Source: Rhabdobacter roseus
Lineage (GTDB): Bacteria > Bacteroidota > Bacteroidia > Cytophagales > Spirosomataceae
Reading direction: 5' to 3'
Length of the DNA: 64,000 nucleotides
NCBI RefSeq assembly: GCF_014202275.1
Contig: NZ_JACHGF010000011.1
Span: 124,001-188,000, forward strand
Shown here: positions 7,985 through 55,455 of the stretch, in pieces
Numbering within the stretch: position 1 is the first letter of the stretch
Layout: every line of letters begins with the position of its first letter
The notes under the pieces: model-generated
Seen by the model: the letters and a program-made list of their open reading frames with translations, nothing else
Told to the model about the DNA's origin: nothing
Databases searched by the model: none
Translations under genes and position numbers: made by a program

Positions 7985-9061
7985 ATGAGTAAATACTATT
8001 ACCTGAAAGTGAAAGACGTGGTGCGGGAAACGCCCGATACCGCCACGATTCACTTTTGGCACCCCCTCAACGAAGTTATTAAATACAAACCCGGTCAGTT
8101 TCTGACGCTGCTGATCCCCCAGGGTGATACGAAACTCCGGCGCTCCTACTCGATGTGCAGCTCACCCTACACGGACGTAGCGCTGGCCATTACCATCAAG
8201 CGGGTATCGGGCGGCTTTGCCTCCAACTACCTCATCGACAGCGTACAGGTGGGCGATAGCCTCGAGGTCATGGAGCCCATGGGTACTTTCACGCCCCAGC
8301 TCGACGCCGAGCAGCAGCGTACGGTGGTGCTGGTCGGGGCCGGTAGCGGCGTTACACCGCTGATTTCCATCGCCAAGTCGGTGCTGATCGTGGAGCCGGA
8401 AAGTACCGTGTACCTGCTCTACGGCAACCGGAACGAAGCCTCCATTCTTTTCAAGACCGTGATCGATCAGCTGCAGGCCAAGTACGGGGAGCGCTTCCGG
8501 GTGGTCCATACGCTCAGCCAGCCGTCGGGTACCTGGACGGGCGAAACGGGCCGTTTGAACAAAACGCACATGCTGAAAATGCTGGAAAAGCTTCCTCCCG
8601 TCGATCCGACTCGGGCCGAATACTACCTCTGCGGTCCCGATACGATGATGGAAGAAGCCCAGCGGGCGCTGGATATTCTGGGGGTACCTGCGCCGCAGGT
8701 ACGGCGCGAAAGCTTCCTGACGGCCACCACCGCTAAGGCCCACGGCGAGGTCACGGTGGGAGAGGAAGAAGACGAGGGCTCGCTCAAAACCCGCGAGATC
8801 ACGGTTATTTACGAAGGCAGTGAATATAAATTTCCGGTCGAGCCGCACCAAACGGTACTGGAAGCCGCCCTAGACCGCGACATCGACCTACCCTACTCGT
8901 GCCAGGCGGGCATGTGTACGGCCTGTCTGGGCCGCTGCGTATCCGGCCAGGTACAGCTCGACGAAGAGGATGCCCTTTCGGAAGCCGAACTCAAGGCGGG
9001 CTTCATCCTTACCTGCGTAACGCACCCGCTCAGCGACGACGTGGTGATCGAAGTAGAATAA
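7985..9061 (+). CDS. FAD/2Fe-2S oxidoreductase (PaaE-like ferredoxin-NADP reductase)
   Basis: A one-polypeptide electron-transfer chain: an FAD-binding ferredoxin-reductase domain (RRSYSMCSSP at about 52-61), an NAD(P)-binding half (VGAGSGVTPLISI, then YLCGPDTMMEEA), and a C-terminal plant-type [2Fe-2S] domain with Cys306, Cys311, Cys314 and Cys344 (CQAGMCTACLG, ILTC). This order matches PaaE/PaaK reductases, but no paaABCD genes are nearby, so the electron acceptor may be a desaturase or another oxygenase. An acidic linker (GEEEDEGS) joins the halves. The last 63 bases are repeated, with five differences, at 10061-10123. Confidence 0.88.
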   Translation: MSKYYYLKVKDVVRETPDTATIHFWHPLNEVIKYKPGQFLTLLIPQGDTKLRRSYSMCSSPYTDVALAITIKRVSGGFASNYLIDSVQVGDSLEVMEPMGTFTPQLDAEQQRTVVLVGAGSGVTPLISIAKSVLIVEPESTVYLLYGNRNEASILFKTVIDQLQAKYGERFRVVHTLSQPSGTWTGETGRLNKTHMLKMLEKLPPVDPTRAEYYLCGPDTMMEEAQRALDILGVPAPQVRRESFLTATTAKAHGEVTVGEEEDEGSLKTREITVIYEGSEYKFPVEPHQTVLEAALDRDIDLPYSCQAGMCTACLGRCVSGQVQLDEEDALSEAELKAGFILTCVTHPLSDDVVIEVE

Positions 9062-10124: not shown

Positions 10125-10170
10125 AAAGTACCCCTGACGCGGCTCTATTTCAGCACGTCAGGGGTACTTT
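10125..10170. terminator. Bidirectional hairpin terminator
   Basis: Perfect 15-bp stem AAAGTACCCCTGACG/CGTCAGGGGTACTTT (10125-10139 with 10156-10170) touching the stop codon of the minus-strand M56 gene. T-rich sequence follows on the plus strand. Confidence 0.6.
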
Positions 10171-12113
10171 TACTTCTTCGCCGGGCTCGCCGCTTTGGGC
10201 GAAGCCGCGGGCGCTACTTTGGCTTTTCCCTGGATGGAGGTAGCCTTCGCGGGTTTTTCTACCGGCGGAGGGGGCGGAGCCGGTGAGGCCGCCGGAGCCG
10301 GGGGTACCGTTTTTTTTCCCGTACCGTACACGTGTACCGGGGGAGGCGGTGGGGGGAGGTACTTTTCCATTTCGCGGGCTTCGCGGTTCATTTGGGAGGC
10401 GATTACCTCCATTTTTTGGCTAATCGTCTCCATTTCCTTCTGAATCGCGCGCGACGGCTCCTCGGCTTGGTGCGCTTCCTGGCGGCTTTGGGCCAGCTGC
10501 GCGTTCAGCTCCGTGATTTTCTGCTCCTGGTCTTTCACCTTTTGCTCCAGCTCCCCTAATTGCTTTTCCACTTCGCTTTCGCTGAGCTTCGCCGGAGCTT
10601 GCCCCTTGGCCGCCTGAGGATACAGCAACGCCGAGCGTTTTTCCATCAGCTTCTGGCGCCCGTCCATCAGCTGTTGTTTTTTCCACTCAATCTGCTCCTG
10701 AGCCCGGTGGTAGCGCTCCACGTCAAACTGCTGCTTTTCCATGGCCAGGTGCAGCTCTTCCATTCGGCGGTGCAGCGGCTCCATCTGCTCTTGCAGGGCC
10801 TCCATGTTGCGCTGGTACGCTTCCAGGCGCTTTTGAGTCGTGTCGCTGGCGCTTGCCTGGTATCTATAGATATCCCCTTCCATAACCTGGTATCGCGGCT
10901 GAGGAGCAGGATCGGCTAACTCTAACGACTCGGCGACTTCCACCAGCGAAGGTACTTCGGCCAGCTCTTCCAGGCTGACAGCAGCCATGATATCCATTGT
11001 TTCTGGGGCTTCCACCTTCCGATCCTTCTGCTCGCCGCGCTGAAGTACCTTTTTACGGTTTTCTTTCTGCGCTTCCTGCTGTCCTACAGCATAGACAGAA
11101 ACGCCCACCAGAAGTCCCGTCAGGATGAGTAGGGCCGGCACGGTACCGATCAGCCGCCGGGGAGCGGGAGCCACGCCTAATACCCGGCGTATCCGGCGCA
11201 GCAGCAATGGCTTGCGCGAGGCAAAGGCCATCGCCAGGCGCGGGTTCGCTTGCAGCTCTGCTACCCGCACCAGTGCCTGGGCCAGCGAGGTGCGGTCGCC
11301 GCAGGTAGCTACGGCCAGGTCGTCGCAGCAGTGCTCGCGCTCGGTACGTACCCGCTCGGAGAGCCACCACAATGCCGGGTGAAAGAAAAAAACAATTTCG
11401 ACGAGCGATTGCAGTAGGTTAACCAGGTAGTCGTGCCGACGAATGTGCGCCAGCTCATGCGCTAGGATGGCCTCGACCTCCGCCACCGAAAAGCCCGTCA
11501 GCAGGCCCACCGGCACCAGCACCACCGGCCGGAGCGCCCCAATCACCAGGGGCGATAGCACGCGGGCCGTTTGCCGCAGCTCCACCGACTGCGTAATGTT
11601 GAGCTTGGCGGTCAGCAGACCAAAGCGCGTGCGCCACTCCTGGTCCATCACCAGCCGCGCCCGGCTACGCAGTACTTCCAGATACACCCAACTACCCACA
11701 AACCGCAGCAGGAGCAGCCCCGCGCCCACCAGCCAGCATACTACCAGCTCTGGCAAATGGGTACTTAGCCAAAGCTGTACCCGCTCCAGGAAGGTCTGCT
11801 GCTGGTACACCTGCTGCCAGGCTTGCACCAGCGCTACCGCCGAAGTACCCCCGGTGGTGGGGGAAGTACCTACGGGAAGCGCGGCGGGGCGGGAAAGCCA
11901 GTAGTAGGCAAAAGTACCCAGCGAAGCCAGTACCTGACCGGCCAATACACTTACGCCCAGCGTATAGCGCCATGCGGCGGGACGGCGGCGGAACGCGTAG
12001 AACCCGGCACCGGCCACCAGCGCCAGCAAAGTACCCTGCCACAGCGCGTGCAGGAGCGTCCAGCCCAGGGTACTTACGGCGTACGGCGGAATCATGTCAA
12101 AAAGATTTTTCAT
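10170..12113 (-). CDS. BlaR1-like M56 family metallopeptidase (antirepressor)
   Basis: Membrane zinc peptidase that in the BlaR1/MecR1 family triggers loss of the BlaI repressor. N-terminal membrane segments (about 15-75 and 122-146) flank a cytoplasmic peptidase region with HELAH (His219, Glu220, His223) and the downstream zinc Glu in RTEREHCCDDLA (near 258-260). A further membrane span lies at about 321-343. No penicillin-binding sensor domain follows; residues 345-647 form a charged coiled coil (MEALQEQMEPLHRRMEELHL) and a Pro/Ala/Lys tail with PPPPPP runs. The signal sensed is therefore not a classical beta-lactam domain. Starts 2 bases after the blaI-like stop, clearly one operon. Confidence 0.88.
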   Translation of the reverse strand: MKNLFDMIPPYAVSTLGWTLLHALWQGTLLALVAGAGFYAFRRRPAAWRYTLGVSVLAGQVLASLGTFAYYWLSRPAALPVGTSPTTGGTSAVALVQAWQQVYQQQTFLERVQLWLSTHLPELVVCWLVGAGLLLLRFVGSWVYLEVLRSRARLVMDQEWRTRFGLLTAKLNITQSVELRQTARVLSPLVIGALRPVVLVPVGLLTGFSVAEVEAILAHELAHIRRHDYLVNLLQSLVEIVFFFHPALWWLSERVRTEREHCCDDLAVATCGDRTSLAQALVRVAELQANPRLAMAFASRKPLLLRRIRRVLGVAPAPRRLIGTVPALLILTGLLVGVSVYAVGQQEAQKENRKKVLQRGEQKDRKVEAPETMDIMAAVSLEELAEVPSLVEVAESLELADPAPQPRYQVMEGDIYRYQASASDTTQKRLEAYQRNMEALQEQMEPLHRRMEELHLAMEKQQFDVERYHRAQEQIEWKKQQLMDGRQKLMEKRSALLYPQAAKGQAPAKLSESEVEKQLGELEQKVKDQEQKITELNAQLAQSRQEAHQAEEPSRAIQKEMETISQKMEVIASQMNREAREMEKYLPPPPPPVHVYGTGKKTVPPAPAASPAPPPPPVEKPAKATSIQGKAKVAPAASPKAASPAKK

Positions 12114-12115
12114 GG

Positions 12116-12490
12116 CTAACGATCTTTTTCAAGGTTGTTTAGTAGGTTTCGGATTTCGTCCAGCTCTTCGGCGGAAGCCTGGTGGTTGCCCAGCGCCTGC
12201 ATCACCAGCCGCGCCGCCGAGCCCCCGAAGGCCGTTTCGACGAAGCGGTCCAGCAGGCCGCGCCGGGTTTCGGTTTCGCTCACTTTGGCGGCGTACACGT
12301 GCGAGCGGCTTTCTTCGCTGCGCTCCAGCAGCCCCTTCTCGTGCATGATCTGCATCAATTTCAGGGTGGTGGTGTAGCCCGCCTCCTTGGTGGTGGCCAG
12401 GTATTCGTGTACCTGCCGCACGGTACTGGGCCCTTCGGACCAGAGGTAGTTGAGAATTTCCAGTTCGGAATCGGTGGGTTTAAGGTTCAT
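12116..12490 (-). CDS. BlaI/MecI/CopY family transcriptional repressor
   Basis: 124-residue winged-helix repressor. PTDSELEILNYLWSEGPSTV opens the family domain, TTTLKLMQIMHEKGLL is the recognition-helix region, and the C-terminal helices (LLDRFVETAFGGSAARLVMQ) form the dimer part. First gene of a two-gene operon with the M56 peptidase. Two 16-bp palindromes of the TACGAAnnnnTTCGTA type lie upstream and are the likely autoregulatory operators. Family logic: the peptidase inactivates this repressor and frees its operon and distant targets. Confidence 0.93.
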   Translation of the reverse strand: MNLKPTDSELEILNYLWSEGPSTVRQVHEYLATTKEAGYTTTLKLMQIMHEKGLLERSEESRSHVYAAKVSETETRRGLLDRFVETAFGGSAARLVMQALGNHQASAEELDEIRNLLNNLEKDR

Positions 12491-19496: not shown

Positions 19497-20591
19497 ATGT
19501 GGCTTGAAAAACTCCATCTGACTCATTTTAAAAACTACGAAGCGGGGAGTTATACCTTTGGGGAGCGGGTAAATTGCCTCGTAGGCCAGAACGGAAGTGG
19601 CAAAACCAACCTGCTGGACGCTATTTATTTCCTGGCACTCACTAAAAGTGCCTTTCAAAATCAGGATGCGCTTACCATTCAGCACGAAGCGGATTTCCTG
19701 GTCCTGGATGGCATCTTTCGGGACGGTACGCGGCGTACGCAGATCACGGGTAGCCTCCAGCGAGGCCAGCGGAAGGTCATGATGGCCGACAAGAAAGCCT
19801 ACGACCGCCTGAGCGACCACATCGGACGGTTTCCGGTGGTGCTCATCGCCCCCGACGATACCGATCTGGTACGGGATGGCAGCGAGGAGCGGCGGCGTTT
19901 TTTTGATGGGGTACTGGCCCAGCTTACCCCTGCCTACCTCGACGATTTCCTGCAGTACAACAAAATCCTCAGCCAACGCAACAGCCTGCTCAAGATCTTC
20001 GCCGAGCGCAACTACCTCGACGAAGACATGCTCGAAACCTACAATGAGCCGCTCATCGCCCTGGCCCAGCGTATCTACGAGCATCGGCGTCGATTCATGG
20101 AACACTTTCTGCCGCTGGTAGGCCGGTACTACGCTTACCTGAGCAACGAGCGTGAGCGCGTGGACCTCATCTACGAGAGTGAGGTAGCCCGGCCCGATTT
20201 CCCGACGGAGTTTCGGAAGCATCGCTCCCGTGACCTCCACGCCCAGCGAACCAGCAAGGGTATCCATAAGGATGACTACGTATTTGAGATCGACGGACGG
20301 GCCCTGCGGAAATTTGGCTCGCAGGGTCAGCAAAAGTCGTTTGTAATCGCCCTCAAACTAGCGCAGTACGAGCTACTGGCGCTTGAGAAAGAAACGCAGC
20401 CTATCTTGCTGCTGGACGATATTTTTGACAAACTCGATGACCTTCGCATTCATAAACTAATCGAAATGATCGACAGCGGCTCCCTGGGGCAGGTATTTAT
20501 TACCGACGCCCGTCCCGAGCGCTCTCACCGTATTCTCGATCAGGTCGCCGCTGATGTCCGCTTCTTTGAGATTGGGAAATCATACGAGTAA
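19497..20591 (+). CDS. recF: DNA replication and repair protein RecF
   Basis: ABC-type ATPase that loads RecA at single-strand gaps with RecO and RecR. 364 residues. MWLEKLHLTHFKNYEAGSYT is the usual RecF opening, Walker A GQNGSGKT lies at 30-37, the signature-like FGSQGQQKSFVIALKLAQ near 273-290, and Walker B PILLLDDIFDKLD near 300-312. Not next to dnaA/dnaN, as often in Bacteroidota. A GTAC motif follows the TAA directly. Confidence 0.95.
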   Translation: MWLEKLHLTHFKNYEAGSYTFGERVNCLVGQNGSGKTNLLDAIYFLALTKSAFQNQDALTIQHEADFLVLDGIFRDGTRRTQITGSLQRGQRKVMMADKKAYDRLSDHIGRFPVVLIAPDDTDLVRDGSEERRRFFDGVLAQLTPAYLDDFLQYNKILSQRNSLLKIFAERNYLDEDMLETYNEPLIALAQRIYEHRRRFMEHFLPLVGRYYAYLSNERERVDLIYESEVARPDFPTEFRKHRSRDLHAQRTSKGIHKDDYVFEIDGRALRKFGSQGQQKSFVIALKLAQYELLALEKETQPILLLDDIFDKLDDLRIHKLIEMIDSGSLGQVFITDARPERSHRILDQVAADVRFFEIGKSYE

Positions 20592-20645
20592 GGTACCCGG
20601 GTGAGGTACCTGTCGGCCCCTTAGGACGCGTTTTAAGCCTTAAAA

Positions 20646-44156: not shown

Positions 44157-45383
44157 ATGAAGACTTTCAATATACCCGATTTTTACCGAAGCCGCATTAT
44201 CTCGCCCATCAAAGAGTTTCGCCGCCGCCACGACAAGCTCAAGCGCGACTTTACGCCCACGGTGCTGGATTTCGGGCCGGTGCGGTTCCTGATCGCCCGG
44301 CACTTTGGCTTTTGCTACGGCGTCGAGAATGCCATCGACATTGCCTACAAAGCCCTTTCTGAAAATCCTGACAAGCGTATTTTTCTGTTGAGCGAAATGA
44401 TTCATAACCCGGACGTCAACCGCGACCTGCAGGAGCGCGGCGTGCGGTTTATCATGGATACCAAGGGAAAATCGCTGATTCCGTGGGAAGCGATTCATCA
44501 GGATGACATCGTGATCGTACCGGCCTTTGGTACCACGGTGGAGATCCAGGCCAAACTGGCCGAAATCGGCATTGACGCCTACCAGTACGATACTACCTGC
44601 CCCTTTGTGGAGAAAGTCTGGAACCGGGCGGCGCAGATCGGCCAAAAGCAGTATACCATCGTGGTGCACGGCAAACCCACGCACGAAGAAACCCGCGCTA
44701 CCTTTTCGCACAGCCAGCAGTCGGCCCCCACGGTGGTGGTCAGGGACCTGCAGCAGGCCCAGCGCCTGGCTACCTACATTACGGGTGAAACGCCCGCCGA
44801 ACGATTTTACGAAGAATTTCAAGGACAGTACTCCGAAGGCTTCAACCCCGCCCGCGACTTGGAGCGCATCGGTGTGGTGAACCAAACTACCATGCTGGCA
44901 TCGGATACGCAGGGCATCGCCGACTACCTCAAACAAACGATGATCCGGCATTTTCGGCTGGCTCCGCCCGAGGTAGAAGACCGCTTCGCCAACACCCGCG
45001 ACACGCTCTGCTACGCCACCAACGACAACCAGGACGCTACCTACGCGCTGCTGAAGTACCCCGCCGACCTGGCCCTGGTAGCGGGCGGCTACAACAGCTC
45101 GAATACCTCGCACCTGGTGGAGCTTTGCGAGGAAAAACTACCTACGTACTTTATTTCGTCGGCCGATAAGCTCCTGGACCAAACGCTGATCCGGCACTTT
45201 GATGGCGCTACCAAAGAGGAAATCACGACGCCCAACTACCTCCCCGACCATACCCCGCTCACGATCATGCTCACCTGCGGCGCCTCCTGCCCCGACGCCA
45301 TCGTGGAGGGGATTCTGCTGCGGCTGCTTTCGTTTTATGAAGGTACCCGGCCCGTGGAGGAAGTAATGGAGGCGTTTGGGTAA
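44157..45383 (+). CDS. ispH: 4-hydroxy-3-methylbut-2-enyl diphosphate reductase, long form
   Basis: Last step of the MEP isoprenoid pathway, a 4Fe-4S reductase making IPP and DMAPP. 408 residues, about 90 more than E. coli IspH, with an N-terminal extension (IISPIKEFRRRHDKLKRDFT) and inserts as in plant/cyanobacterial forms. Cluster cysteines: Cys53 in RHFGFCYGVENA, Cys in YDTTCPFVEKVW, and the third in GASCPDAIVEG; NTRDTLCYATNDNQDA and GGYNSSNTSHLVE are further family motifs. A GTAC motif follows the stop at once. Confidence 0.94.
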   Translation: MKTFNIPDFYRSRIISPIKEFRRRHDKLKRDFTPTVLDFGPVRFLIARHFGFCYGVENAIDIAYKALSENPDKRIFLLSEMIHNPDVNRDLQERGVRFIMDTKGKSLIPWEAIHQDDIVIVPAFGTTVEIQAKLAEIGIDAYQYDTTCPFVEKVWNRAAQIGQKQYTIVVHGKPTHEETRATFSHSQQSAPTVVVRDLQQAQRLATYITGETPAERFYEEFQGQYSEGFNPARDLERIGVVNQTTMLASDTQGIADYLKQTMIRHFRLAPPEVEDRFANTRDTLCYATNDNQDATYALLKYPADLALVAGGYNSSNTSHLVELCEEKLPTYFISSADKLLDQTLIRHFDGATKEEITTPNYLPDHTPLTIMLTCGASCPDAIVEGILLRLLSFYEGTRPVEEVMEAFG

Positions 45384-45415
45384 GGTACTTCACAAGGTAC
45401 CAACCAAAGTACCTT
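45382..45415. terminator. GTAC-arm hairpin between convergent ispH and DinB-like genes
   Basis: AAGGTACTT/AAGTACCTT (45382-45390 with 45407-45415), with a further GGTACC inside the loop. Weak as a terminator; noted for its composition. Confidence 0.3.
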
Positions 45416-46000: not shown

Positions 46001-47575
46001 TTACTCAAACTGCTGCAAGCGACTATCGTTGAAGTACACCCGCAACGGCCCGGCGGGGCGGCCTTCGTTGTGCAGGCGGTCCACGGCCGTGACGTAGTAG
46101 AGGTACTTGCGGCCCGGCTCCATGGTTTTGTCCACGAAGCGCTCGCCCTCATGGCACAGCCCGATGATCCGGCGCGCATCGCGGGCGCTGGGTTTTTCTT
46201 CCGAGTCGAAGCGGTACACCACGTAGTAGCGGGCCGTGTCGCCGTCTTCGGCGGGCTCGGGTTGTTCCCAGAGTAGCTCCAGGCCTTCGGGAGCCAGGGT
46301 TGCTTTGAGGTTTTGGGGGGCTAGCGGCGGTACGTTGTCTTTCCAGGGCATGGTAGGTACCAGCGCCGGGTACTGGTAGAGGTGAGTACGCAGCGAATCC
46401 ACAAAGCCCAGGCTGTTGCCCCGCAACGAACGGGAGCTAAAAAAAACGCTGCCGTCGGCCCCCTGCGCGCGCAGGTACCTTACCTGGTTGGGGATTTCGG
46501 CCGCATTTTGCCAGGTTTTGTCGGTATCCTGGTACCCCACGCGGTAGGCACTCTGCCCAATGTACAGGTGCCGGTCAAACTGGTTTTCGGCCCACCAGTC
46601 CACCAGATTCCGGAAGGGTACTTTCTTGAACCCCGACGAAAAATAAACCTGCGGGGCGATGTAGTCTACCCAGCCTTCCATGAGCCACTTGCGGGTATCG
46701 GCGTAGAGGTGGTCGTAGGAGGCCAGCCCCCCGAAGGTTTCGGAGCCGTTGGCATCTTCGCGGTGATTCCTCCACACCCCAAAGGGGCTAATACCAAACT
46801 TGAGGCGTGGATTCAACGCTTCGAGCGCCTCGTGGATTTGTTGGATCAGGAGATTGATGTTGTGCCGTCGCCAGTCGTTTTTGTTGGCAAAACCCTGCCC
46901 GTACTGCCGGTAGGTGGCGTCGTCCTGCAGGACTTGCCCCGGGGCGGCGTAGGGATAAAAATAATCGTCGAAGTGAATGCCGTCTACGTCGTAGTGGCGG
47001 GCCACGTTGACCGTCATGTCAGTGATAAACTGCCGTACTTCGGGCAAGCCGAAGTTGAAGAGCTTATAGCCGTCGTAGCTGAGGATCCAGTTGGGCTTGG
47101 TGCGGCTGATATTCTGAGCCGACACACTCGTAGACGACTTGTGTACCAGGCGGTTCAGGTTGAGCCAGGCGTGGAATTCAAGCCCCCGGCGGTGGGCTTC
47201 TTTTACCATAAATTCCAAAGGATCGTAGAAAGGCTCCGGAGCCCGCCCCTGCTCGCCCGTGAGCCACTCAGACCAGGGCTCGGGGCTTTTGGCATAGAAA
47301 GCATCACCGGCGGCCCTTACCTGCACAAAAACGGCATTCATCCCTACTCCTTTATGAAAGTTCAGCAGCTCGGCAAACTCCTGCCGTTGCTGGGCCGGGG
47401 TCATGTTCTTGCGGCTCGGCCAGTCGATGTTGTCCACGGTAGCGATCCAGACGGCCCTAAACTCCCGTTTGGGGGGCAAGATAGGTTGTATATCAGAAGA
47501 TTGGGCCTGGCAGGCAGTCAATACTACGGAAAACAGAAAGGAAAGGAAGAAAGCCGTAATACAGAAACTTTTCAC
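46001..47575 (-). CDS. GHL10-family glycosidase-like lipoprotein
   Basis: 524 residues starting with GTG. Lipoprotein signal ends in VVLTACQAQ. The catalytic-like domain starts FRAVWIATVDNIDWPS, passes FVQVRAAGDAFYAKSPEPWS, FHAWLNLNRL, YDVDGIHFDDYFYP and KFGISPFGVWR, as in GHL10 (DUF187) glycosyl-hydrolase-like proteins of the YngK type. From about residue 415 a fibronectin-III-like domain follows (PPLAPQNLKATLAPEGLELL). Probably degrades peptidoglycan-related or other glycans at the cell surface; substrate unproven. Confidence 0.87.
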   Translation of the reverse strand: MKSFCITAFFLSFLFSVVLTACQAQSSDIQPILPPKREFRAVWIATVDNIDWPSRKNMTPAQQRQEFAELLNFHKGVGMNAVFVQVRAAGDAFYAKSPEPWSEWLTGEQGRAPEPFYDPLEFMVKEAHRRGLEFHAWLNLNRLVHKSSTSVSAQNISRTKPNWILSYDGYKLFNFGLPEVRQFITDMTVNVARHYDVDGIHFDDYFYPYAAPGQVLQDDATYRQYGQGFANKNDWRRHNINLLIQQIHEALEALNPRLKFGISPFGVWRNHREDANGSETFGGLASYDHLYADTRKWLMEGWVDYIAPQVYFSSGFKKVPFRNLVDWWAENQFDRHLYIGQSAYRVGYQDTDKTWQNAAEIPNQVRYLRAQGADGSVFFSSRSLRGNSLGFVDSLRTHLYQYPALVPTMPWKDNVPPLAPQNLKATLAPEGLELLWEQPEPAEDGDTARYYVVYRFDSEEKPSARDARRIIGLCHEGERFVDKTMEPGRKYLYYVTAVDRLHNEGRPAGPLRVYFNDSRLQQFE

Positions 47576-47747
47576 TCGGAGATCTGGGGGATTAGTTTGG
47601 ACTCGTCAAAGTAACGTATTTTGAAACAAAATTCAGTTGCTACGGTCTATAAACTTAGCGGGCAGGCCAAAGCCAAAGCGTAGGGATCGGAGCGGGGTGT
47701 ACGCTTTTTGGACGGGCTCATTTTTTTAATTATTTTTAAAACAGTAC

Positions 47748-47769
47748 GGAGGACATCCTCCAATTTTTT
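47748..47769 (+). terminator. Hairpin plus T-run in the glycogen synthase leader
   Basis: GGAGGA-CA-TCCTCC (47748-47761) followed by AATTTTTT. Because both flanking genes point away, it could act only as an attenuator of the glycogen synthase message, or be accidental. The rest of the 280-base gap holds A/T runs and no gene. Confidence 0.3.
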
Positions 47770-47855
47770 AGGTACATAGTGCTATTTTTTGTGATTTTGA
47801 CGAAAAATAGTACCTTTCCTTCCAAACCTCAATTAAGCTTAAACGCATACCCATT

Positions 47856-49670
47856 TTGGAACCATTCGTAAAAACGCCTAAAAATAATACGCTGATTGAA
47901 ATAGCCTGGGAAGTTTGTAATCAGGTAGGGGGGATCTATACTGTCATACGAACCAAAGTACCAGCTATGGTAGAAAAGTGGGGCGAGGACTACTTTCTGC
48001 TCGGACCCTATTTTCCCCAAAAAGCGGCTTCCGAATTTGAGCCCATCCTTGATCTGGACGACTCCCCCGCCGGACGCACGGTACGGCGCATGCGCGAAAT
48101 GGGGTACTCGGTACAGTACGGCTACTGGCTCGTCACGGGCAAGCCCCGCGTGGTCCTTTTTGATGTGGCCAGCATGTACCCCCTCCTGGACCGCATCAAG
48201 TTCAACCTCTGGGAAAGCCAGCGGATTTCCACGATCAACACCGAGGATCTGGTCAATCAGACCCTCCTTTTTGGGGAAGCCGTGCGCGTGTACCTGACAG
48301 CCTACGCCGACGAACACGCCAAGAAATCGGACGTCACCGCGCAGTTTCACGAGTGGATGTCCAGCAGCGGACTGTCCGACCTGCGCAAGGATAACGTAAA
48401 AATAGCGCTTTCCTTCACTACCCACGCGACGATGCTCGGCCGGTACCTAGCCCAGAACGTAACGGATTTCTACGGTAAACTACCCTTTTTTGATTGGGAG
48501 CAGGAAGCCCGGCATTACAACATTGTGACGCAGGCTACCATTGAGCGCCTGTCGGCTCAGAATGCGCACGTGCTCACCACCGTCAGTGACGTCACGGCCC
48601 GGGAGTGTGAGGTGTTTCTGGGCCGAATGCCCGACCTGGTGACCCCCAACGGCCTCAACGTGGTTCGTTTTCAGGCCGTGCACGAGTTTCAGAACCTGCA
48701 CGTCAAGTACAAGGAGCGCATTCAGGAGTTTGTGCTGGGTCATTTTTTCCCGAGCTACTCTTTCGACCTGGACAAAACGCTGTACTTTTTTACCTCGGGC
48801 CGGTACGAATACAGCAACAAAGGCTACGACCTGACCCTGGAAGCCCTGGCGCGCCTCAACTGGAAAATGGTCCAGGCTAACATGGACATGACCGTTGTGA
48901 TGTTCATCGTGACCAAGCAGCCCTACCACTCCATCACGCCGCATGTGCTACAGTCCAGGGCGGTGCTGGATGAATTACAGGAAACCTGTACGGCCATTGA
49001 GAAGCAGGTCGGGGAGCGGCTCTTTCTGGCTACGGCCGCTGGCAGCGATCACAAAATGCCCGACCTCAATAACTTCGTGGACGAATACTGGCGCCTGAGG
49101 CTGCGCCGCACCATTCAAACCTGGAAAACGGACGAATTACCCGCTTTTGTAACGCATGACCTCGTCGAGAGTGACGGGATCGTGGAGTTTTGCCGACAGG
49201 CCAACCTGGTCAACAACGAGCGCGACCGCGTCAAGATCGTCTACCACCCCGATTTTATTTCTTCTACCAATCCGCTTTTTGGTCTCGACTACGGGCAGTT
49301 TGTGCGGGGTTGCCACTTGGGGGTATTTCCCAGCTACTACGAGCCCTGGGGCTACACGCCGCTCGAATGCGTGGTGCGCGGGGTACCTACCGTCACCAGC
49401 GACCTATCCGGCTTCGGGGATTACATCATGCAGATCATGCGCGATTACGAAAACCGGGGCATTTACGTCATTAACCGTAAGTCCCAAACCTTCACCCAGG
49501 CGGCCGACCAAATGGCGGACATTCTGTTTAAGTTTGTGAAGATGCAGCGCCGCGACCGCATCATGCAGCGCAATCGGGTAGAGAATATTTCGGATGTTTT
49601 TGACTGGACCAACCTGCGCTCCTACTACGACACCGCCCATGACCTGGCCAACAAGCGCCGAAAGCCCTGA
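47856..49670 (+). CDS. Glycogen (starch) synthase, GT3 family
   Basis: Adds glucose to glycogen from a nucleotide-sugar. 604 residues, like animal and yeast glycogen synthase rather than GlgA: IEIAWEVCNQVGGIYTVIRT near the start, WGEDYFLLGPYFPQ, VTPNGLNVVRFQAVHEFQNL, FFTSGRYEYSNKGYDLTLEA, and the retaining-GT motif PSYYEPWGYTPLECVVRGVP with both conserved Glu. Only TTG 47856 serves as start; no in-frame ATG lies nearby. Stand-alone gene with its own terminator; branching and degrading enzymes are not in the window. Confidence 0.93.
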   Translation: MEPFVKTPKNNTLIEIAWEVCNQVGGIYTVIRTKVPAMVEKWGEDYFLLGPYFPQKAASEFEPILDLDDSPAGRTVRRMREMGYSVQYGYWLVTGKPRVVLFDVASMYPLLDRIKFNLWESQRISTINTEDLVNQTLLFGEAVRVYLTAYADEHAKKSDVTAQFHEWMSSSGLSDLRKDNVKIALSFTTHATMLGRYLAQNVTDFYGKLPFFDWEQEARHYNIVTQATIERLSAQNAHVLTTVSDVTARECEVFLGRMPDLVTPNGLNVVRFQAVHEFQNLHVKYKERIQEFVLGHFFPSYSFDLDKTLYFFTSGRYEYSNKGYDLTLEALARLNWKMVQANMDMTVVMFIVTKQPYHSITPHVLQSRAVLDELQETCTAIEKQVGERLFLATAAGSDHKMPDLNNFVDEYWRLRLRRTIQTWKTDELPAFVTHDLVESDGIVEFCRQANLVNNERDRVKIVYHPDFISSTNPLFGLDYGQFVRGCHLGVFPSYYEPWGYTPLECVVRGVPTVTSDLSGFGDYIMQIMRDYENRGIYVINRKSQTFTQAADQMADILFKFVKMQRRDRIMQRNRVENISDVFDWTNLRSYYDTAHDLANKRRKP

Positions 49671-55403: not shown

Positions 55404-55455
55404 GTAGGGTACTTGGCGGGTCAGGTACTTTTCAGGAGGTACCTACCGCCAGGGG

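Follow-up and report, generated by a model that had tools for sequence, protein, structure and literature searches.

Introduction

Bacterial genomes can harbour short words that are repeated far beyond expectation. HIP1 (GCGATCGC) of cyanobacteria is present at 300-2700 copies per Mb with an observed/expected ratio (O/E) of 55-228, and in some cyanobacterial strains it is replaced by alternate HIPs (Elhai 2015, PMC4390886). The DUS of the Neisseriaceae comprise eight dialects built around a fixed core, and the kingDUS occurs 5918 times in 2.4 Mb (PMC3630211). The origin and upkeep of highly iterated words such as HIP1 are still debated, and the word ARGTACCY described here represents an independent case from another phylum.

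The word was recognized in a stretch of 64 kb, termed the window, from the 6.9-Mb genome of Rhabdobacter roseus (Spirosomaceae, Bacteroidota). An earlier note on the window had pointed out a frequent GTAC palindrome and likened it to HIP1. The analysis was extended to a 464-kb sample, which comprises the window and 20 further stretches, and the codon-level statistics rest on 282 genes therein. Literature searches found no report of an ARGTACCY word.

Identity and abundance of the iterated word

The seven GTAC tetramers that the earlier note had counted in 11821-12120 are located at 11845, 11866, 11914, 11930, 12031, 12070 and 12081. Throughout the window GTAC occurs 589 times, versus 246 expected on the basis of nucleotide composition and 200 under an order-1 model. 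An order-2 model predicts 561, a value inflated by the contribution of the motif to the trimers counted. The reported excess of GTAC is real and was even understated, but the over-represented unit is a different one. Extension of the GTAC core yielded ARGTACCY, a mostly non-palindromic 8-mer (AAGTACCT, AAGTACCC, AGGTACCT), which accounts for five of the seven tetramers: AAGTACCC at 11843..11850 (+), within an M56/BlaR1-like peptidase gene (10170-12113, -), AAGTACCT at 11864..11871 (+), AAGTACCC at 11912..11919 (+) and again at 12029..12036 (+), and a minus-strand site at 12068..12075, which reads GGGTACTT on the plus strand. Another minus-strand site (GGGTACTT, 11759..11766) lies just beyond this interval. 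In total, the window contains 166 ARGTACCY sites (2.59 per kb), and its longest site-free stretch (46615-49380) spans 2.8 kb.

The 464-kb sample harbours 1,220 sites, which corresponds to 2,629 per Mb; the density rises to 3,091 per Mb once site-free stretches >3 kb are set aside. Compared to an order-1 model, the three main 8-mers reach an O/E of 30-43 (AAGTACCT 43-fold, AGGTACCT 36-fold, AAGTACCC 30-fold), while AGGTACCC is enriched 11-fold and the symmetric AAGTACTT only 4.7-fold, with 25 sites versus 887 for AAGTACCY. The forms AAGTACCC/T dominate, and the sole palindrome of the set, AGGTACCT, makes up 181 of the 1220 sites. Against a masked order-2 background the ARGTACCY set is enriched 13.4-fold and the three main 8-mers 14- to 21-fold, whereas words with a single mismatch average 1.4-fold, which indicates a sharp 8-bp definition. 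Words close to ARGTACCY show no systematic depletion, and the flanks of the sites carry little signal except for a mild preference for A at position -1. Genome-wide, AAGTACCY occurs 13,622 times, and the complete genome contains approximately 18,000 ARGTACCY sites, if the share of AGGTACCY is extrapolated from the 464-kb sample. The heptamer AAGTACC is found 8091 + 7891 times on the two strands, versus 649 + 674 for the reversed control word.

Shuffling of synonymous codons in the 282 genes gave a 1.43-fold excess of GTAC (z 28), compared to 4.2-fold for AAGTACC and 10.7-fold for GGTACTT. A GTAC ratio near 1 after codon correction had been named as the outcome that would speak against an iterated GTAC; such correction leaves 1.43-fold overall, but merely 1.10-fold outside ARGTACCY, and the GTAC palindrome was rejected as the unit. 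Beyond ARGTACCY, GTAC thus stays at the background level of the family. ARGTACCY is a highly iterated, DNA-level oligonucleotide.

Placement in genes, gaps and islands

ARGTACCY sites are found in both orientations, in all reading frames and in the gaps between genes. The view of the earlier note that protein sequence does not account for such a pattern is borne out, and a codon or amino-acid artefact was rejected on the basis of synonymous shuffling, intergenic density and occupancy. The reported accumulation after stop codons was also confirmed: site numbers are highest within 30 bp downstream of a stop codon, at 25-40 per 10-bp bin versus about 7 expected. TAAGGTAC directly follows the aminotransferase (7747), recF (20589) and ispH (45381) genes, as had been described. 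At recF a site overlaps the stop codon (taAGGTACCC, 20591..20598, +) and a second one, AGGTACCT, lies in the same convergent gap (20604-20611). At ispH the overlapping site is on the minus strand (taAGGTACTT, 45383..45390), followed by AAGTACCT in the convergent gap (45407-45414, +). Downstream of the triose-phosphate isomerase gene, a convergent gap accommodates three sites in 38 bp (55407-55414, 55423-55430, 55437-55444).

Overall, convergent gaps hold the most sites (12.8 per kb), followed by tandem (6.5 per kb) and divergent gaps (2.3 per kb). A promoter element was rejected, since divergent gaps are the poorest in sites, and so was an RNA-level signal, given that sense and antisense sites after genes are balanced (89 versus 92). 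A function as terminator or inverted repeat was rejected as well, because among intergenic pairs less than 45 nt apart inverted pairs are not in excess (36 inverted versus 39 direct); true terminator hairpins often have sites at their flanks, yet are not built from them. Finally, the whole-genome strand totals, which are balanced at 8091 versus 7891, give no indication of a replication-polar word with a KOPS- or Chi-like skew. The sites are clustered, with a median spacing of 168 bp versus a mean of 343 bp, and no helical phasing of the spacing is visible.

The genome also contains motif-poor islands with sharp edges, the identifiable genes of which belong to type VI secretion systems (T6SS), RHS, surface-polysaccharide and type I CRISPR loci. 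Two regions with T6SS (ClpV-like, TssF) and RHS genes (L008 and L017:1-9500) are almost motif-free. Incoming foreign DNA that initially lacks the word and gains it slowly would be expected to form such islands. In practical terms, motif density separates resident from foreign DNA in these genomes.

Occupancy and protein cost

Coding positions that allow the word synonymously carry it in 820 of 1,316 cases (62%), while shuffling predicts about 8%. To avoid circularity of this figure, occupancy was also restricted to positions where the amino acids are identical to those of a relative; there, the R. roseus genome reaches 51-58% and the relatives 13-41%. With no more than about 45 kb aligned and 55-78 sites available per relative, effect sizes are approximate. 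The comparisons with five relatives agree, but are not fully independent, since the same R. roseus sites are reused.

The word has also altered proteins. At 58-65% of the coding sites the protein of the relative could not encode the word; the corresponding share was 0-41% for those control words that occurred at a few sites or more. Likewise, amino-acid identity to the five relatives is 0.63-0.68 for codons under the word versus 0.72-0.74 for flanking codons. In the relatives, deviations from the word affect each of its positions, include transitions as well as transversions and often amount to two to four changes. Gains thus involve substitutions at every position, often several together, and no single mutation type explains them. 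Only 7-29% of the sites are common to the relatives, and most are not shared; the relatives, at about 75% identity, do not allow the substitutions to be placed in order. ARGTACCY has recently multiplied in resident DNA by point substitution, in genes and gaps alike and at some cost to proteins.

Distribution and dialects

Among 291 genomes of the order, none comes near the R. roseus level of AAGTACC-type words. The 221 other genomes of the family contain 19-3,238 copies of AAGTACCY each, versus 13,622 in R. roseus. The next counts among the 222 family genomes are 3,238 (G414), 2,435 and 2,268 (G465 and G464), 1,978 (G430) and 1,174 (G334, incomplete), and each remaining genome contains between 19 and about 830. 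G414 very likely represents Persicitalea jodogahamensis; enrichment was also seen at a locus with the name Persicitalea. In an rpoB tree R. roseus, genus g140, G414, G430, G334 and the unenriched G333 fall into one clade together with the unenriched genus g5.

Sister genera have multiplied related words. The Persicitalea dialect reads AASTACCY (AAGTACCY 17-fold, AACTACCY 13-fold enriched), and G430 uses AGGTACCY (26-fold) and ACCTACCY (11-fold). Enrichment is weak in g140 (about 6-fold), and the nested genus G333 lacks the word. The dialects have the common frame A-V-S-TACC-Y, and therefore, the constant part is TACCY rather than GTAC. AACTACCY, the Persicitalea form without GTAC, again contradicts the earlier proposal of a GTAC palindrome as the unit.

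Several genomes deviate in other ways. AAGTACCY is strongly depleted in g5, a Dyadobacter-like genus (G358 with loci L253 and L152, G278, G342, G127, G263, G338, G184); G358 has 19 AAGTACCY versus 437 copies of the reversed word, and a 20-kb stretch of it (L253) has only 0.3 GTAC per kb. This depletion possibly reflects a GTAC-type restriction history. Genomes from other families of the order (G047 and G102 of family f14, genus g46, as well as G097 and G177) show a mild excess of AAGTACC, with about 1,600-2,200 copies versus 300-700 of the reversed word. In Larkinella (L025, L030, L031, L039), AAACCGGT occurs about 9-fold above order-1 expectation and is perhaps another iterated word.

Possible origins of the word

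The best explanation for these patterns, which we put forward tentatively, is motif-biased fixation through a putative sequence-specific DNA-processing host protein. Such a protein, handling DNA in recombination or repair, would favour the word-bearing allele, and biased gene conversion would spread the word to all places where constraints on proteins and promoters permit. The density of the word would then maintain whatever the protein uses it for, such as a mark of self or resident DNA, and dialects would arise as the specificity of the protein changes. The lineage dialects and the limitation to a clade fit a protein with evolving specificity. Telling biased conversion from strong selection requires population data. 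More speculatively, ARGTACCY might represent a new self-DNA recognition or motif-biased gene-conversion system of the Bacteroidota, which is pilus-independent, forms dialects and rewrites proteins.

The graded occurrence, the dialects and the motif-free sister genera render the responsible protein searchable by comparative genomics, and the strength of the drive can be measured by simple occupancy statistics. If the word served for DNA uptake or self-recognition, it would provide a new route that biases bacterial recombination towards a bacterium's own kind; in case of a repair bias, it would reveal a mutational or conversion force able to alter proteins genome-wide.

Alternatively, ARGTACCY might be a DUS-like word, preferred by a DNA receptor in natural transformation and accumulated by biased uptake and recombination. 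We consider this rather unlikely, even though the density matches that of the densest DUS, the core is sharp, the dialects are phylogenetically ordered around the conserved TACCY, and the word is missing from foreign islands, enriched after stops and costly in amino acids. An uptake sequence fits every pattern except the machinery and the terminator-like inverted pairs typical of DUS, which are not favoured here. A T2SSE/PilB/PilT-type ATPase has no match in the R. roseus genome and no more than sub-cut-off hits in the relatives, and hence, ComP-type pilus uptake is not expected.

A HIP1-type ratchet, in which a word-recognising orphan methyltransferase and methyl-directed mismatch repair create and keep the word, appears improbable. 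HIPs have been linked to orphan methyltransferases by Elhai's model and data (PMC4390886), and the methyltransferase search, which covered four families including N6_N4, D12, C5 and PF02384, yielded a candidate. The PF02384 search retrieved an orphan CamA/Eco57I-like gamma-class N6-adenine methyltransferase (L248:9381-10898), the nearest solved structures of which are a site-specific adenine DNA-methyltransferase (8cxz, 7lni) and M.BseCI. A MutS-like gene (L248:6985-8826) is located two genes upstream, and the region that spans both genes (L248:6985-10898) lies on contig C2 at about 875-879 kb. The orphan enzyme is vertically conserved in 7 of 7 genomes checked (53-64% identical), enriched, unenriched (G333) and depleted (G358) alike, and therefore, possession of this enzyme is not enough to account for the word. 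Among the other classes tested, none was at once common to the enriched genomes and correlated with the motif: a Type II/III or D12 methyltransferase common to the enriched genomes was not found, Persicitalea is devoid of both N6_N4 and D12 enzymes, and the C5 enzymes, for which proper proteins were recovered at some loci only, are not convincingly orthologous (24-28% identity). The lack of systematically depleted near neighbours also argues against a ratchet, as does the absence of Vsr from the R. roseus genome; with substitutions at all positions, Vsr-type patch repair was rejected. The idea that the motif marks methylation or mismatch-repair sites has so far gained no support. An N6_N4 methyltransferase gene in a motif-poor region (G000:C13:81886-82878; L208, L256) is 98.7% identical to one of G334 and is a putative recently transferred restriction-modification-type gene.

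It seems improbable as well that the word was selected as the binding site of an abundant protein that organises the nucleoid or chromosome. An even spread over resident DNA, both orientations and lineage dialects would suit such a protein, but the filling of more than half of the synonymous options and the replacement of amino acids go far beyond what individually weak sites would lead one to expect, and the clustering of sites without visible helical phasing speaks against it, too. An origin as a side effect of codon, dinucleotide or amino-acid usage, or of past restriction at GTAC, might be suggested by the modest family-wide excess of GTAC (order-1 O/E 1.4-2.4). Such an origin can be dismissed in view of the synonymous shuffling, the density in non-coding DNA, the occurrence in all frames and the lack of the word in relatives with a similar GC content.

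Comparison with known systems

Similar to ARGTACCY, the Chi sites of RecBCD/AddAB are non-palindromic words over-represented in resident DNA. Yet, Chi enrichment is several-fold rather than 20- to 40-fold, gaps are not saturated and amino acids are not replaced.

ARGTACCY shares with HIP1 the short length, a similar density with an O/E far above 10, the genome-wide occurrence in genes and gaps, the lineage-specific replacement words and the spread by substitution. The likeness to HIP1 drawn in the earlier note thus holds for density and spread, but not for a palindromic unit: AAGTACTT is rare, and ARGTACCY is palindromic solely as AGGTACCT. Moreover, ARGTACCY belongs to another phylum, close relatives lack it, its methyltransferase partner is only a candidate, and amino-acid replacement is observed. 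The DUS and the USS of Pasteurellaceae are non-palindromic 8-12-mers that reach up to about 2,500 copies per Mb and are absent from foreign DNA, and DUS dialects follow phylogeny around a fixed core. Absence from islands and dialects are found for ARGTACCY as well, while the Rhabdobacter genome lacks the type IV pilus ATPase and an excess of inverted terminator pairs. Lacking the palindrome of the HIPs and the machinery of the DUS, ARGTACCY is filed under neither; it resembles HIPs in its density and spread, and DUS in its dialects and asymmetry.
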